Source of the DNA: an uncultured Halomicronema sp. | GTDB lineage: Bacteria; Cyanobacteriota; Cyanobacteriia; Phormidesmidales; Phormidesmidaceae | NCBI GenBank assembly: GCA_937899725.1 | Contig: CALCCA010000208.1 | Coordinates: forward strand, 1 to 49,331 | Direction: 5' to 3' | DNA length: 49,331 nt | Translations under genes and position numbers: made by a program | Notes under the pieces: generated by a model | Seen by the model: only the letters and a program-made list of their open reading frames with translations | Database searches by the model: none | Told to the model about the DNA's origin: nothing | In this document: positions 40,016 through 44,306 of the stretch, in pieces | Layout: each line of letters begins with the position of its first letter | Position numbering within the stretch: the first letter of the stretch is position 1

Positions 40016-40590
40016 TTCACTGGCAACTGGTCGAACGACTAGCACAACATTATCAACGGGTTGCGACCAAGGGGATACCTATACTTCGACGTAGCACTGC
40101 CAATCGAAAGGCCGCCACGGTGATCGCCCTGGCAGACCTGTAGGCCTACACTTCACAGCAGACAAAAAGGCCAGCTGTCGCCTCGCTCTAGTTAAGTAGA
40201 AAGCCCTAATCATCGTCGGGTGTGTCATCGCCTAGCGTGACGCCCCCAAGCCAACCCTGGCGGTGCGTTGGGCTGTCACCAAAACACCCCCTACAGCAAT
40301 ATTTATTTATGGCTACCGACTTATCTTCGCCTCATCCCATGGATGGTGAGGCAGCGCTCCCAAAGGTGCATTGGCTGTCCTGTTAGTCGGCCAATGTTGA
40401 CGCCTTTGGCGTAAAGATCAGGCTGACACGACGGCACACCAGTCGCATTTGCCGAAAGATGTCACGACGTTGACCGCAAAGAGACACGGCTGCCAGTTGA
40501 CCGCTCGATAGCATGTTGAGTAGTTACATTAGGGTCAGGTGTGGCCGCCAACTAATGCTGCTTACTGCTCTTTATGAGTTCACTAAAGTA
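40016..40590. other. 575-nt spacer upstream of the Ser/Thr kinase
   Basis: No supported gene; a 25-codon frame at about 40310 lacks an SD. The spacer holds a perfect 12-base palindrome TGTAGGCCTACA (40139-40150) and a small hairpin ACGCC-TTT-GGCGT (40400-40412) that could end an upstream transcript. The kinase promoter is expected near 40450-40560. Confidence 0.4.
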
Positions 40591-41949
40591 ATGCATGAGG
40601 CCCAGCCCCAAGGGGCGTTGATTCAAGCTCGATACACAATTTTGGATGTACTGGGCCAGGGCGGTAGCGGTCTTACCTACCGGGCTGAGGATGCCGTCAC
40701 CGGACGCTCAGTCGCGCTCAAAGAGCTATCACTCAAGGGGTTGAGCGATTGGAAGCAGCTCGAACTCTTTGAGCGCGAAGCGCTGGTCTTAAAGAGTCTC
40801 GACCATCCGGCGATTCCTCAATATATCGATTACTTTCAGGTCGATACAGCCGACAATCGGTTGTTTTATATTGTTCAAGAGATTGCCGAGGGCCAATCGT
40901 TAGCACAGCTGGTCGCAGCAGGGGAGCGCTTTGCTGAAGCAGAAGTGAAACGGATTGCGACTGAGGTTTTGCAGGTGCTGCAATACATCCATCACTTAAA
41001 TCCGCCCATTATCCATCGCGATGTGAAGCCCCAAAATCTCATTCGGCGGCAAGATGGACGCATTTTTCTAGTGGATTTTGGCGCGGTGCAAATGGTTTAT
41101 CGAGCTAGCACCACGATGGGCAGCACCGTCGTCGGCACCTATGGCTACATGGCTCCGGAGCAGTTTCAGGGGCAGGCCTATCCCGCTACTGATTTGTATG
41201 GCCTAGGGGCAACATTACTCAACTTGCTCACCCATCAAGATCCCGGCAATTTGCCCCAAACCCGTCTCCGGATTGATTTTCGCTCTCATGTCACCCTCTC
41301 TGACACCTTTGCTGATTGGCTCGATGACCTCCTAGAGCCGTTGATAGAAGAGCGCTTGGCATCAGCCAGCGAAGCGATCGCCGCCCTGACCCAACCTCGG
41401 CCTCGCCGCAGACACCCGGGTGATGGGCCAGTTGCCAGACCAGCGCCAGCCCTCAAAAGACCCGCCGGCAGCTGCGTTGAATTGACTCGCCGCCCGGGGC
41501 ATCTGTCCATTCGCATACCGCCCGTCGGCTTGCATGAAGACAATGCGGGCAGCGTCTTTCATGCCATATTTGGGATCGGCTTTGTTGTGTTGATGCTATT
41601 CGTAGACGCCCCGTTTTTCTTTACCCTCACGTCATTAATCGCGAGTCTGAATTTCATCTGGCCATTGCTGTACGCTTTCGCGGGCAGAGTCGCCTTAGAA
41701 ATTGACGGCGATCGCTTCACCTTGACCCGTCAATTCTTTGACTGGAAACGAAGCGACCAAGGGGCAACGACTGACCTCTACGGCGCTGAGATCGTGGCGA
41801 CACGGAATAATTTTCAACGTTCCACCAAGGTGATTGCCTTCTCCGATGGCGCTCATCAATTTGGCATGACCCTCTCAACGCCAGAAAAAGTCTGGCTGCT
41901 TTCCGAGATTGAAGCGTTCATTCAAGACCAGGCCAGGTTGAGTCGTTAG
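40591..41949 (+). CDS. Serine/threonine protein kinase (Hanks type), membrane-anchored
   Basis: A 452-aa kinase. The glycine loop is LGQGGSGLTY (21-30), the lysine is Lys44 in VALKEL, the catalytic loop is HRDVKPQN (142-149), the DFG motif is 162-164 and the APE motif is at 188-190. The kinase domain ends at about 275. A Pro/Arg linker (278-310) is followed by two adjacent transmembrane helices (about 345-385) and a C-terminal beta-rich domain, as in many cyanobacterial Spk proteins. The ATG at 40591 is used because the upstream frame from 40513 adds only non-conserved residues. No substrate gene is adjacent. Confidence 0.88.
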   Translation: MHEAQPQGALIQARYTILDVLGQGGSGLTYRAEDAVTGRSVALKELSLKGLSDWKQLELFEREALVLKSLDHPAIPQYIDYFQVDTADNRLFYIVQEIAEGQSLAQLVAAGERFAEAEVKRIATEVLQVLQYIHHLNPPIIHRDVKPQNLIRRQDGRIFLVDFGAVQMVYRASTTMGSTVVGTYGYMAPEQFQGQAYPATDLYGLGATLLNLLTHQDPGNLPQTRLRIDFRSHVTLSDTFADWLDDLLEPLIEERLASASEAIAALTQPRPRRRHPGDGPVARPAPALKRPAGSCVELTRRPGHLSIRIPPVGLHEDNAGSVFHAIFGIGFVVLMLFVDAPFFFTLTSLIASLNFIWPLLYAFAGRVALEIDGDRFTLTRQFFDWKRSDQGATTDLYGAEIVATRNNFQRSTKVIAFSDGAHQFGMTLSTPEKVWLLSEIEAFIQDQARLSR

Positions 41950-42563
41950 ATTCTCATCAAACTGTAAATGCCAGGGATAAACCCATTACAGGAAGCCTCA
42001 TCCTGCCAGCGAAGTCAAAAATCAATTTATCGCACCCATTAGCAGTGCCCGTCTGGCCAAGCCCTCAAGCTGCTAGGGCGCGTCATTAATTAAACTCGAA
42101 AGCTTTACGGGATGAGCATTACCGCGCCCGCTCCGTCAAACTAGCTAGAGGCTGAACCGCTTTCAGCATTAGGACTCAGCCACTAAATGATGACAGCCTC
42201 TAGCACTACCAAATCGTGACGGCCAGAAAGCCGACTACTTTAAGAAAAGTAAAGCTCTTGTCACAATGTTTGTTCCTATTGCCACGTAGGGCATAGGCCA
42301 AAGACAGCTACGAATTTGAGCCCAGTACTCGATGCGGCTCATCCCCCACTGTCCACAGCTTTGTCGTGGGTGTTGCCAACATTCTCAGTCCGGCTGTAGA
42401 CCTCATCTCTGAAACCAAAGTCTTACCAGACCTTCTAGACCCTATGCATCGGCAGATAACCCACCCGTCCTCATACAACACCAGTTAACTTTGACGTCGA
42501 ACGACTGCGATGTCACACAACTGACTGCTGGTGACACATATCTGTAGGAGGATAAAAATCCCT
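41950..42563. other. 614-nt spacer upstream of the sigma-like gene
   Basis: This unusually long non-coding stretch between two plus-strand genes contains no supported ORF. It holds the inverted repeat at 42145-42203 and a possible operator at 42511-42536 (TGTCAC and GTGACA, 14 nt apart). A TTGACG at 42491-42496 could be a -35 box, but no convincing -10 follows. Confidence 0.45.
42145..42203. repeat. Perfect 10-bp inverted repeat (stem-loop)
   Basis: CTAGAGGCTG (42145-42154) and CAGCCTCTAG (42194-42203) pair perfectly across a 39-nt loop. It lies about 195 nt after the kinase stop and 360 nt before the sigma-like gene. It could be an RNA structure or a protein-binding site. Confidence 0.5.
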
Positions 42564-43166
42564 ATGCCTAAGATCTACAAGCAGCTGGAATTGCTACATG
42601 AGGTCGTCAGTCGTTCACTATCACCTCAGGAGGTGGGAACTTCAAAAAATCTAATTTTTTTCATTCGGCGATCGCTAAATCAAATGGGCCTTTACCCGGA
42701 ATGGCACGAAAGTGAAATTCTGATTGAGGCTTATTTAAGAGTCCGCCAGAAAGTCCTGACTGGCCACGAAGTCCAGAAATTCCCCGCTTATCTCACCCGA
42801 GTTGCTCAGCTCATCATCTTTGAGAAGAGCAAACAACGAAGACGCAACTATAGCATCAGTCAAAAGTTATCTCGGGCAGAGGCAGAGGATGATAGTGCTT
42901 TTTCAGTCGATCACTCCTATACAGACGGCATCAACCCAGACACCATCGATACTCTGTGGAGTTCGTTCAAAGCACTATCAGAAAAAGACCAGGAAGTTCT
43001 CACTTTACGCATCGTCCATGGCTATTCTTGGAAAGAGGTGGCCTACACATTTGTCGAGTGGGGACTAGAATCTCACTACAGTGACTCTTTAATTCCCAAA
43101 TTGAGAACCCAAGGGAAAAGAGCACTTGAAAAACTTAGAAAAGGTGTTTTATCTGTCAACAACTAA
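42564..43166 (+). CDS. Sigma-70-like (ECF-type) regulatory protein
   Basis: A 200-aa protein resembling an extracytoplasmic-function sigma factor. The N-terminal half (about 25-100) fits a diverged region 2: IFFIRRSLNQMGLYPEWHESEILIEAYLRVRQKVLTG, then FPAYLTRVAQLIIFEKSKQRRR. Region 4 (133-192) has LSEKDQEVLTLRIVHGYSWKEVAYTF. Its recognition helix is stretched by about ten residues (VEWGLESHYSDSLIPKLRTQGKRALEKLRK), which is odd. The ATG at 42564 has AGGAGG 12-17 nt upstream; a GTG at 42531 is possible. The downstream membrane protein is the likely partner. Confidence 0.7.
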   Translation: MPKIYKQLELLHEVVSRSLSPQEVGTSKNLIFFIRRSLNQMGLYPEWHESEILIEAYLRVRQKVLTGHEVQKFPAYLTRVAQLIIFEKSKQRRRNYSISQKLSRAEAEDDSAFSVDHSYTDGINPDTIDTLWSSFKALSEKDQEVLTLRIVHGYSWKEVAYTFVEWGLESHYSDSLIPKLRTQGKRALEKLRKGVLSVNN

Positions 43167-43235
43167 CTATCCCGATCAGGGAAGGAACATAGCAGACAGC
43201 AAAGCAATTAACTACAAAGGATTGGTGCAACTTTT

Positions 43236-43859
43236 ATGCGACCAGAAGAATCCCGTGACCTAAGAGCCTTTCTAGAATCTGCCGATATCGAGTATACAGA
43301 GGTCGTACAAGAGTATTACTACTTAGCGAAGCTGCCAGAACTCTCTACAGCTCAGGCGACTCGGCTGCATCAGATCCTCCGCATGGGGGAAGTAGATGAT
43401 ACTCTTTGTTTTCTGATGAACGAGATTGATGAAATCACATTTCAAGAACTGGGCTTTTATGAGGCCGAGGTGCAGCCCTATTTCGAAAATGAAACAGCTC
43501 GGATTCGAGAACATATCCTGAGCGAGAGTGAACGAAAGATTTTGATGAGCTTTTCGACCCCGAGGCAGCGAGAGCATGTGAGAAACTCAGGTGCTTCCCC
43601 TCGATATCCCCGGGTTGAAATGCTGTATGACTCAACTCAATCATTGCGATCTTCGCTGAACCGACAGCTATTTTTGGAAAGCGTACCGAACGTCGCTGAG
43701 TACAATACTCTGCAAGTACCCAGCACGGCACTCACCAGGAATCAGCAAAACACATCACAACTAGGGCGGTTCCTGCAGACTTTCTTCGTTGAGGAATCTG
43801 TTTCATGGTTTACCCTCGCAGCGTTAGTTTGGATGATTTTTTGCATCATCCTTATTTGA
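43236..43859 (+). CDS. Unknown protein with a C-terminal membrane anchor, partner of the sigma-like gene
   Basis: No family recognised. The 207-aa protein is acidic and helical for residues 1-115, with a repeated short acidic/aromatic pattern (VQEYYYLAKLPELSTAQATRLHQIL). A Ser/Asn-rich linker (120-185) follows. The last 19 residues (189-207) form one hydrophobic helix ending at the C-terminus, so the protein is probably tail-anchored with its body in the cytosol. It lies 69 nt after the sigma-like gene and before a strong terminator, so the two form a two-gene unit. An anti-sigma role is plausible by position, not shown. Confidence 0.7.
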   Translation: MRPEESRDLRAFLESADIEYTEVVQEYYYLAKLPELSTAQATRLHQILRMGEVDDTLCFLMNEIDEITFQELGFYEAEVQPYFENETARIREHILSESERKILMSFSTPRQREHVRNSGASPRYPRVEMLYDSTQSLRSSLNRQLFLESVPNVAEYNTLQVPSTALTRNQQNTSQLGRFLQTFFVEESVSWFTLAALVWMIFCIILI

Positions 43860-43885
43860 GATCTGTGAAGACAGCAAACAACCTC

Positions 43886-43923
43886 AAAAAAGGCTTCTCA
43901 GCGATCGCTGAGAAGCCTTTTTT
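43886..43923 (+). terminator. Rho-independent terminator with HIP1 apex
   Basis: A perfect 26-base palindrome (43892-43917) has HIP1 GCGATCGC at its centre. Six As precede it and six Ts follow (43918-43923). It ends the sigma-like/membrane protein unit and, being symmetrical with A- and T-tracts, can also act on the opposite strand. Confidence 0.88.
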
Positions 43924-44102
43924 GATGTTTCACTAAACTACGCAGCCAGCCGATGAGTCCCAGATTCAGGCATAGCAATTACAACGCACTCACTTAAAGT
44001 ATGACCGCATCTACTAATTTGATAGGCATCGCCATATCTCTACCGTCACAATATTTTTTCTCGGGACACGTATTAATAAGAGTTCAAAAAATATAGGTGA
44101 CT

Positions 44103-44306
44103 ATGTCATATACCATTCACGATACTCATCTTGATCTGCAGGTTTGTCCAAAATGTGGCAAGCAAGCGCTGGCCCAACCCAAACACAATCACTATCGCTG
44201 TCTTTGGTGTGGATTTGAGTCGGATGTGTCAGATAACGCTGTACGCTTCCCTTTGATTCTGCTCTTAATCCCTCTGGTGGCATTAGCGATTGTGCTTACT
44301 CAATGA
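44103..44306 (+). CDS. Small zinc-ribbon protein with C-terminal membrane helix
   Basis: A 67-aa protein. Cys15-x2-Cys18 and Cys33-x2-Cys36 form a zinc-ribbon knuckle pair (CPKC ... CLWC), followed by a single hydrophobic helix (about 48-65) at the C-terminus. The ATG at 44103 has AGGTG 4 nt upstream; a GTG at 44097 adds only two residues. No named family is recognised. It lies after the sigma-like unit's terminator, so it is probably separately transcribed. The ribbon faces the cytosol if the helix is a tail anchor. Confidence 0.7.
   Translation: MSYTIHDTHLDLQVCPKCGKQALAQPKHNHYRCLWCGFESDVSDNAVRFPLILLLIPLVALAIVLTQ

Follow-up and report, generated by a model that had tools for sequence, protein, structure and literature searches.

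The window analysed here, a stretch of 49,331 nucleotides (nt) from contig CALCCA010000208.1 of an uncultured Halomicronema sp., contains a two-gene operon encoding a sigma factor of the extracytoplasmic function (ECF) type, which we call P1, and an acidic partner protein, P2 (Table 1). A first-pass annotation had described two open reading frames (ORFs) of 200 and 207 amino acids (aa) followed by a terminator, and all three are present; 69 nt separate the P1 stop from the P2 start. Here we report that the N-terminal domain of P2, named P2N, recurs beside P1-type sigma factors in other cyanobacteria. We consider it reasonably likely that P1 and P2 form a sigma/regulator module that controls its own expression, and that P2N is a new domain that binds the sigma, probably as an anti-sigma.

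Table 1. Features of the P1/P2 operon, in window coordinates.
Feature	Position	Strand	Basis
Distal copy of the bipartite motif, TGTCAC-N18-CAC	42259..42285	+	Motif match
Proximal promoter candidate, TGTCACAC-N12-GTGACACAT (-35 TGTCACA, -10 CACAT)	42511..42539	+	Conserved in four orthologous loci
Ribosome-binding site AGGAGG	42546..42551	+	Read from sequence
P1, ECF-type sigma factor, 200 aa	42564..43166	+	ORF, family matches
Lengthened turn of the region-4 helix-turn-helix, P1 residues 166-175	43059..43088	+	AlphaFold2 helices 156-165 and 176-199, spacing counts
P2, acidic partner protein, 207 aa	43236..43859	+	ORF, isoelectric point, hydropathy
P2N domain, conserved mobile part, about residues 10-100 of P2	43263..43535	+	Recurrence elsewhere, profile searches
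C-terminal membrane anchor, P2 residues 189-207	43800..43856	+	Mean hydropathy 2.53
Hairpin terminator ending the operon	43884..43925	.	19-pair near-palindrome

The sigma factor and its partner

The best family match of window P1 is TIGR02937 (sigma70-ECF; 8e-7, residues 48-160), and Pfam region 4 is matched at E 5e-4. The initial description of P1 as sigma region 2- and 4-like thus stands, and no non-sigma family fits the protein better. Our alignments hold 35 of 41 candidate P1-family members and 42 of 45 candidate P2N domains (near duplicates and one truncated sigma left out). TIGR02937 is matched at 1e-3 or better by 28 of these 35 sigmas, the best relatives reaching 2.8e-13, and a profile of the family finds the PDB structures of SigW (5wuq, 2e-8), SigL (6dv9, 1.7e-6) and RpoE (1or7, 9e-4), with an alignment to SigW that spans positions 19-187. 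By TIGR02937 and the SigW alignment P1 consists of sigma2 and sigma4 only and has no sigma3, as is characteristic of ECF sigma factors. It ends at residue 200, closing with a helix at 176-199 and showing no C-terminal regulatory extension in a Pfam scan. The protein is basic (isoelectric point, pI, 9.15), as is the family on average (mean pI 8.4, mean net charge +2.5).

The first reading had also noticed about ten extra residues within region 4, and the turn is indeed longer than that of SigW by about this number. The spacing from W156 to R181 is 25 in P1, 21 in 20 of 35 family rows and about 15 in SigW, the last figure counted by hand from the PDB-search alignment; by these differences, about six of the extra residues are a family trait and about four are an addition of the window's own clade. 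A spacing of 25 is found in four family rows and one of 26 in a further row (L027; here and below, L, G and C numbers denote loci, genomes and contigs). The AlphaFold2 model that places the flanking helices has a mean predicted local distance difference test score (pLDDT) of 52, with block means of 57-83 over residues 131-200.

P2 has a pI of 4.8 and, as had been remarked, no ZAS motif: Hx3Cx2C was not found in its sequence, and no family in Pfam, NCBIfam or PHROGs matches it better than E 0.1. Its last 19 residues form the membrane helix recognized earlier. This C-terminal helix is common to window P2 and its three orthologues, and a conserved (V/I)EESVS motif reaches into it.

Across the 42 aligned copies, P2N has one invariant Tyr and near-invariant positions occupied by three Leu, one Ala and one Asp, with a consensus of roughly L..EYC.LA..P.LS.....RL..IL..AE.D..L.F.I.E.DH. 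Its mean net charge is -9.7, negative in 41 of the 42, and its fold is predicted to be helical. When all 42 copies were scanned no Pfam model corresponded to the domain; two lone matches, at 5e-4 and 9e-4 and to unrelated families, we take as chance. The idea that P2N is a copy of a sigma fold was rejected (hhalign 0.1%).

Pairing, co-divergence and fusion of P1 and P2N

A P2N gene was scored as paired when a P1-family sigma of at least 75 bits lay within 2 kb. By this measure 58 of the 97 P2N genes in 95 related genomes (the window's own included, with 82 P1-family genes at that score) are paired, 31 in divergent orientation, 25 sigma-first and two P2N-first. Both genes are present in 37 of these genomes, P1 only in three, P2N only in three and neither in 52, in a set whose relatives are not independent. 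Within a phylum-wide sample of 386 genomes P2N is found in seven, and a P1-family gene adjoins ten of the 11 P2N loci; four of those ten lie in two genomes (G000 and G088) that also supplied model rows. We further surveyed 25 held-out genomes, absent from model building and chosen for having P2N, three of them from a genus used in training. There 29 of 42 P2N genes adjoin P1, four adjoin a low-scoring or fused sigma and nine stand alone, while 29 of 34 P1 genes are paired and 12 of the 29 pairs are divergent. At most 13 first-look candidates per genome were scored in the phylum sample and the held-out set (at most eight for pairing in the sample); weak copies may be missed.

Counting low-scoring and fused sigmas, the held-out figure becomes 33 of 42, and in none of the surveys are homologues of the two genes rarely adjacent. 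Recurrent pairing and the sigma identity of P1 together support the first-pass suggestion of a sigma/membrane-regulator pair of a type not named.

The pair is also found on plasmids. A tblastn search with P1 found five plasmid records, and in three of the four examined (two from Nostoc, one from Fischerella) P2N adjoins the sigma; the fourth, from Calothrix, carries an EAD1 and TRADD-like_N fusion. The Nostoc sp. ATCC 53789 pair consists of GJB62_RS34430 (sigma-70 family) and GJB62_RS34435 (P2N at 5e-25), the latter a "hypothetical protein", as the P2N genes of four plasmid records are annotated. Plasmid Cy782203 of Gloeothece verrucosa PCC 7822 is an exception to pairing: it encodes an 88-aa stand-alone P2N protein (L196, 3977-4243), P1 is not matched anywhere within about 4 kb, and the promoter motif described below is not present in exact form. 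A further arrangement was seen at L293 (2172-8534, G560:C231), where P1-type sigma genes and P2N genes, three of each, stand in a row, one sigma having a duplicated N-terminal part and one protein two P2N domains.

The two partners have diverged together. Distance matrices of P1 and P2N correlate at r=0.81 over 64 pairs; swapping paralogues within the 21 multi-pair genomes gives a mean r of 0.21 and a maximum of 0.67, and none of 2000 swaps reaches 0.81. When the set is cut to 31 divergent pairs, r is 0.55 (0 of 5000 shuffles). This shows faithful co-inheritance and is not by itself proof of binding.

Sigma-like and P2N parts are found in a single frame in three proteins, in the order ribbon-helix-helix-like N-terminus (by eye), sigma-like, P2N in L291 and L292, and helix-turn-helix-like (by eye), sigma-like, P2N in L100. 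Their sigma parts score 26.4 bits in L291 (shuffle maximum 4.4), 34.0 in L292 (4.7) and 24.3 in L100 (6.4), and their P2N parts 43-50 bits. A fourth fusion, L096, is weaker (sigma 11.8 against a shuffle value of 9.2), and the sigma part is unconvincing in L098 (8.9 against 6.3) and L099 (-0.3 against 2.6).

The fusions set P2N right behind the sigma-like part, where an activation domain integral to the chain might sit, and are thus compatible with P2N being a positive partner, either a co-activator or a sigma-loading chaperone, that helps P1 engage RNA polymerase while the C-terminal module reports the stimulus. Divergent pairs, which do not tie the level of P2N to that of the sigma, favour the same view, as does the lack of homology between P2N and the anti-sigma domain compared with it. 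However, the membrane tether of window P2 and its three orthologues is easier to explain by sequestration, and coupling to the same promoter suits a negative feedback brake. A positive role seems unlikely to us, though it is the alternative we take most seriously.

A common promoter signature

The spacer 5' of P1 (41950-42563) is 614 nt long, and this length, together with inverted repeats, had been read as a sign of a controlled unit. While the spacer is real, the repeats are not its informative part: it holds a single perfect 11-nt pair (42144-42154/42194-42204), which led us to discard them as an operator. The spacer matters instead because of a sigma-type promoter motif, the bipartite TGTCAC-N18-CAC. 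Alignment of four orthologous upstream regions revealed TGTCACAC-N12-GTG(A/T)CACAT, at identical spacing and directly 5' of the ribosome-binding site, 53 nt before the P1 ATG in the window. Among the three other aligned loci the distal copy is present in G002 (97-98% identical) and not in G003 or G012, and since it is kept only there we consider it the weaker of the two. Searching both strands of the window with TGTCAC-N17/18-CAC gave two matches, both in the P1 spacer; the strict 17-base form has no other match within two mismatches in the window's own genome, where a reversed control pattern has one.

The reduced form TGTCAC-N17/18-CAC was set after inspection of upstream regions that included most of the 29 loci in the first test, which was therefore not blind. 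In that test the motif precedes eight of 29 non-redundant sigma genes that do not belong to the orthologous group, against a mean of 0.10 and a maximum of two in dinucleotide shuffles and a total of two for all other spacings from 5 to 35 combined. It is found on the opposite strand at five of the 29, as expected if divergent P2N genes share the same signal. Among all distinct upstream regions it precedes 41 of 120 P1 genes, 30 of 125 P2N genes and eight of 774 other ORFs, with totals of one to five for each of six control spacings. At held-out loci, unseen when the motif was set, it precedes 11 of 29 P1 and nine of 33 P2N genes (20 of 62 together), compared with three of 84 other ORFs, one of which (L280) is at a fragmentary sigma of G539; the six control spacings gave zero or one. 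In the all-region and held-out counts, regions are distinct by exact 100-nt identity only and are uncorrected for kinship.

Positions that were not part of the search agree among 49 non-redundant instances: TGTCAC is followed by A in 38, CAC by T in 35 and then by A in 32. The spacer is 17 in 38 instances and 18 in 11, and 17 of 27 sigma instances lie 33-65 nt ahead of the assumed ORF start. Promoters of ECF41 sigma factors tested experimentally have a -35 of TGTCACA, a spacer of 16 +/- 1 nt and a -10 of CGTC (PMC3426412). The signature found here has the same -35 and spacing and thus sigma-promoter geometry with a different -10, and we regard TGTCACA (-35), 16-17 nt, CACT/A (-10) as the candidate promoter of the P1 operon. 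Positive autoregulation, a common trait of ECF systems, is suggested at the sequence level by conservation of the motif in the four orthologues and its enrichment upstream of P1 and P2N genes.

The motif also precedes P2N genes that are not linked to a sigma. In one group of the genus designated g12 it was found at all 12 scored loci (eight exact, four with one changed base), and it precedes P2N genes of G022, G594 and G514, the last with a sigma 4.4 kb away. The g12 groups were split by score and not by tree, and 16 of 17 "110-type" and 12 of 16 "80-type" genes were scored.

Its presence before P2N genes themselves, unlinked ones included, would be expected if P2 were chiefly what the sigma acts on or through, and not its regulator. 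The COE proteins, encoded beside ECF41 and the only targets found for it, would be the precedent. ECF41, with the same -35, has neighbour genes that are its targets, with no signalling role observed for them (PMC3426412); the highly varied C-terminal modules of P2N proteins, TIR/NB-ARC among them, are also effector-like. Set against this, conservation falls on the small P2N domain rather than on an enzyme, some proteins join P2N to a sigma-like part, and paralogue-specific co-divergence exceeds what a promoter link needs. We consider an effector role for P2 improbable, though less so than the immunity-type scenario taken up below.

Interchangeable modules and a proposed mechanism

The C-terminal part of P2N proteins varies widely. 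Module counts were made over 87 of 88 P2N proteins (the truncated L102 left out) and cover the best 25 of 37 Pfam families and the best 25 of 48 NCBIfam families. By Pfam, PG_binding_1 is present in 43 of the 87, pentapeptide repeats in four (one of them a TIR protein) and DPBB in two; single cases are a TIR/TPR/NB-ARC protein of 1875 aa (L069), a TPS and OprB protein (L070) and one with a Mo-nitrogenase C-terminal domain (L023). The held-out loci add two pentapeptide proteins and one DPBB protein. NCBIfam matches common to many of these proteins (HxsA, SleB and others) we take as the peptidoglycan (PG)-binding part.

A loose hydropathy threshold was passed by 12 of the 87, leaving 75 without a membrane helix by this measure; among the 12, the hydrophobic segment lies in the pentapeptide region of L103 and ahead of P2N in L098. 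The membrane-partner claim of the first-pass annotation thus holds for window P2, which is tail-anchored, but the tail is only one of many modules and it is the N-terminal P2N that is conserved. In L070 and L077 the stretch before the helix is charged (seven and six Lys/Arg, against zero and three after it) and an envelope-type domain (TPS/OprB or DPBB) follows, and therefore P2N of these proteins should be cytosolic, in an N-in topology. Likewise, the position of the helix at the extreme C-terminus indicates that window P2 and its three orthologues should be cytosolic and membrane-tethered. None of the P2N proteins with the PG-like motif passes the hydropathy threshold, and they may recognize wall fragments in the cytosol. 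Two further loci, L097 (2334-4947, G012:C1) and L301 (918-3534, G560:C216), have a region-4-like helix-turn-helix protein (Pfam 0.005 and 1e-6) and then a P2N protein of 616-647 aa with DPBB at its end; neither two-gene unit has a clear sigma part, and both are possibly a split form of the fused type.

P1-type sigmas are themselves fused to other domains. One on Calothrix sp. NIES-4105 plasmid2 (AP018292; L198, 1921-3504) carries EAD1 and TRADD-like_N, upstream of a gene that the plasmid record labels RNA polymerase subunit beta'; L126 is fused to TRADD-like_N; L105 (5980-9462) and L106 (2786-6655), in similar multi-gene neighbourhoods, lie within NfeD/NB-ARC/CHAT proteins of 1160 and 1289 aa; and L120 (3516-4637, G249:C1) is fused to a PIN-type domain (PIN_3, 3e-7). 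Such fusions link the family to the TRADD-N, EAD and EACC2 conflict systems of multicellular cyanobacteria, in which ECF-like sigma domains are fused to or lie beside small adaptors and variable effectors (PMC8195603, PMC7159879). Where these papers discuss sigma domains, they tie them to EACC2/DUF1822 and TRADD-N and not to a P1/P2N pair. The EAD and TRADD-N Pfam models match none of the 42 P2N domains; the library does detect such domains elsewhere, in L198 (EAD1 and TRADD-like_N) and in L126 (TRADD-like_N). No caspase match was seen among the families listed for P2N proteins.

It could be argued from these fusions, from the degenerate-looking region 4 in the fused sigma parts of L096 and L100, and from the one P2N protein that is a TIR-NB-ARC protein, that P1 has lost sigma function and serves an immunity-type network by binding DNA or as an adaptor, with P2N as an adaptor domain akin to effector-associated domains. 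Stand-alone P1 members, however, retain regions 2 and 4, the family profile aligns to SigW over positions 19-187, and a sigma-type motif with a tested ECF -35 lies upstream. PADLOC gave no match for P1 or P2, which also led us to reject a catalogued defence system; among the eight proteins submitted, TIR and TPR models were hit by L069 and a single model, weakly (9e-4), by L105. Loss of sigma function strikes us as very improbable.

The closest architectural parallel is with class I anti-sigma pairs, in which a small N-terminal domain of the partner, often membrane-bound and often autoregulated, binds the sigma (PMC7406223, PMC8103513). As in those pairs, the P2 gene adjoins a two-domain ECF sigma, P2N is predicted to bind the sigma, and a cytosolic N-terminus is coupled to a membrane helix in window P2 and its three orthologues, with N-in topology in L070 and L077. 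In contrast, the Hx3Cx2C zinc motif seen in part of that class is missing, and most P2N proteins have no helix by hydropathy. ECF41 is similar at the motif level only, in its -35, its spacing and a neighbour under the same promoter, and differs in the -10, in the COE protein next to it and in the regulatory domain fused to its C-terminus (PMC3426412); in P1 nothing follows the final helix of region 4.

A zf-HC2 anti-sigma-type protein, whose sigma is known as SigG, is present in 39 of 59 related genomes, and in the window's own genome (G000) it adjoins a 46-bit sigma other than P1 (G000:C88). Its domain was the one anti-sigma family compared with P2N (28 of 29 rows, L220 left out); a visual resemblance in the pattern Y..L..LS..E was abandoned when hhalign gave it no support. 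In the SigI/RsgI systems of clostridia, paralogous pairs use one type of sigma-binding domain and vary the extracytoplasmic sensor attached to it. The architecture is similar here, with one domain, varied modules and paralogous pairs, but the sigma family and binding domain are different and many P2N modules seem to lie in the cytosol.

Sigma homology, recurrent pairing, co-divergence, fusions, modularity and a common promoter motif are all computed. From them we infer physical binding, its inhibitory sign, a signal and a regulon, in the following form. P1 would drive its own operon from the candidate promoter, and the acidic P2N, of about 90 residues, would bind basic P1, with the C-terminal helix of P2 keeping the complex at the membrane. 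At rest, P1 is most likely kept sequestered by P2 in the manner of an anti-sigma factor. A membrane or envelope signal would release P1, and the freed sigma would raise both proteins, giving positive feedback with a built-in brake. At related loci, where P2N is joined to peptidoglycan-binding, DPBB, pentapeptide or TIR/NB-ARC modules, the C-terminal module may set the timing of release.

Several observations weigh against this sequestration model. P2N genes are unpaired in 39 of 97 cases (29 of the 39 from g12), linked genes co-diverge without any binding, and the exact motif precedes only 71 of 245 P1 and P2N genes; it is found at none of 16 scored loci of the other g12 group and at three of 15 other unpaired or fused genes. 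P1 falls below curated cut-offs (TIGR02937 28.8 against 42.9 bits, Pfam region 4 20.1 against 25.7), and seven of 35 family members have a negative net charge. P2N has no PDB match (best E 0.24, a designed protein), hhalign gives 0.4% against the zf-HC2-type domain, and the AlphaFold2 models, made one protein at a time from shallow three-row alignments, are of low confidence (mean pLDDT 46.5 and 52). Finally, although PG-binding is so common among P2N proteins, none of the 12 that pass the hydropathy threshold has a PG-like motif, which is odd for an envelope sensor.

More tentatively, and with doubt slightly outweighing belief, we propose that P2N represents a class of its own among the regulatory domains that bind sigma factors, with no kinship to known anti-sigma classes, and that cyanobacteria join it to interchangeable inputs so that many signals converge on one sigma family with one promoter code, TGTCACA-N16/17-CACT. 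These inputs would comprise membrane tails, cytosolic receptors of peptidoglycan fragments, envelope DPBB sensors, pentapeptide helices and a TIR/NB-ARC immune-type protein.

For some ECF sigma factors the neighbouring genes give no hint of a regulator (PMC8103513). The present analysis provides one such cyanobacterial family with a partner domain and a promoter signature, as well as a route to target prediction; the domain matched no Pfam family, and window P2 matched none in NCBIfam or PHROGs. A classification of cyanobacterial sigma70 proteins by Pfam domains lists region 2/region 4 sigmas and fusions to NB-ARC and TPR_MalT (PMC11119718); by word counts it has no neighbour analysis (the string "neighbo" is absent, and "anti-sigma" appears a single time, within a reference). 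The P1/P2N pair and the P2N domain were not found described in the literature covered, and the 2021 ECF re-classification may contain a group name. If binding is true, a class of sigma regulators is added, and envelope-binding, pentapeptide and TIR/NB-ARC modules are tied to one transcriptional output. If the new-class proposal is also true, P2N would define a plug-in signalling system from cell-wall state and immunity to transcription. A new family of bacterial signal switches is now open to testing.

Some features around the operon remain to be mentioned. The terminator scan lists the hairpin on the minus strand; on the plus strand TTTTTT likewise trails the stem. A Ser/Thr protein kinase gene (40513-41949; Pkinase 1.1e-41) lies directly 5' of the spacer. 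It was considered as a third component and set aside because the locus of Oscillatoria sp. CS-180 (L067), a cyanobacterium that carries a pair, with similar flanking genes (presumably MFS and M16 peptidase genes), has no kinase between the corresponding genes. Just past the terminator, a 67-aa frame (44103-44306) contains two CxxC pairs, which by eye resemble a zinc ribbon, and has a hydrophobic helix at its C-terminus.

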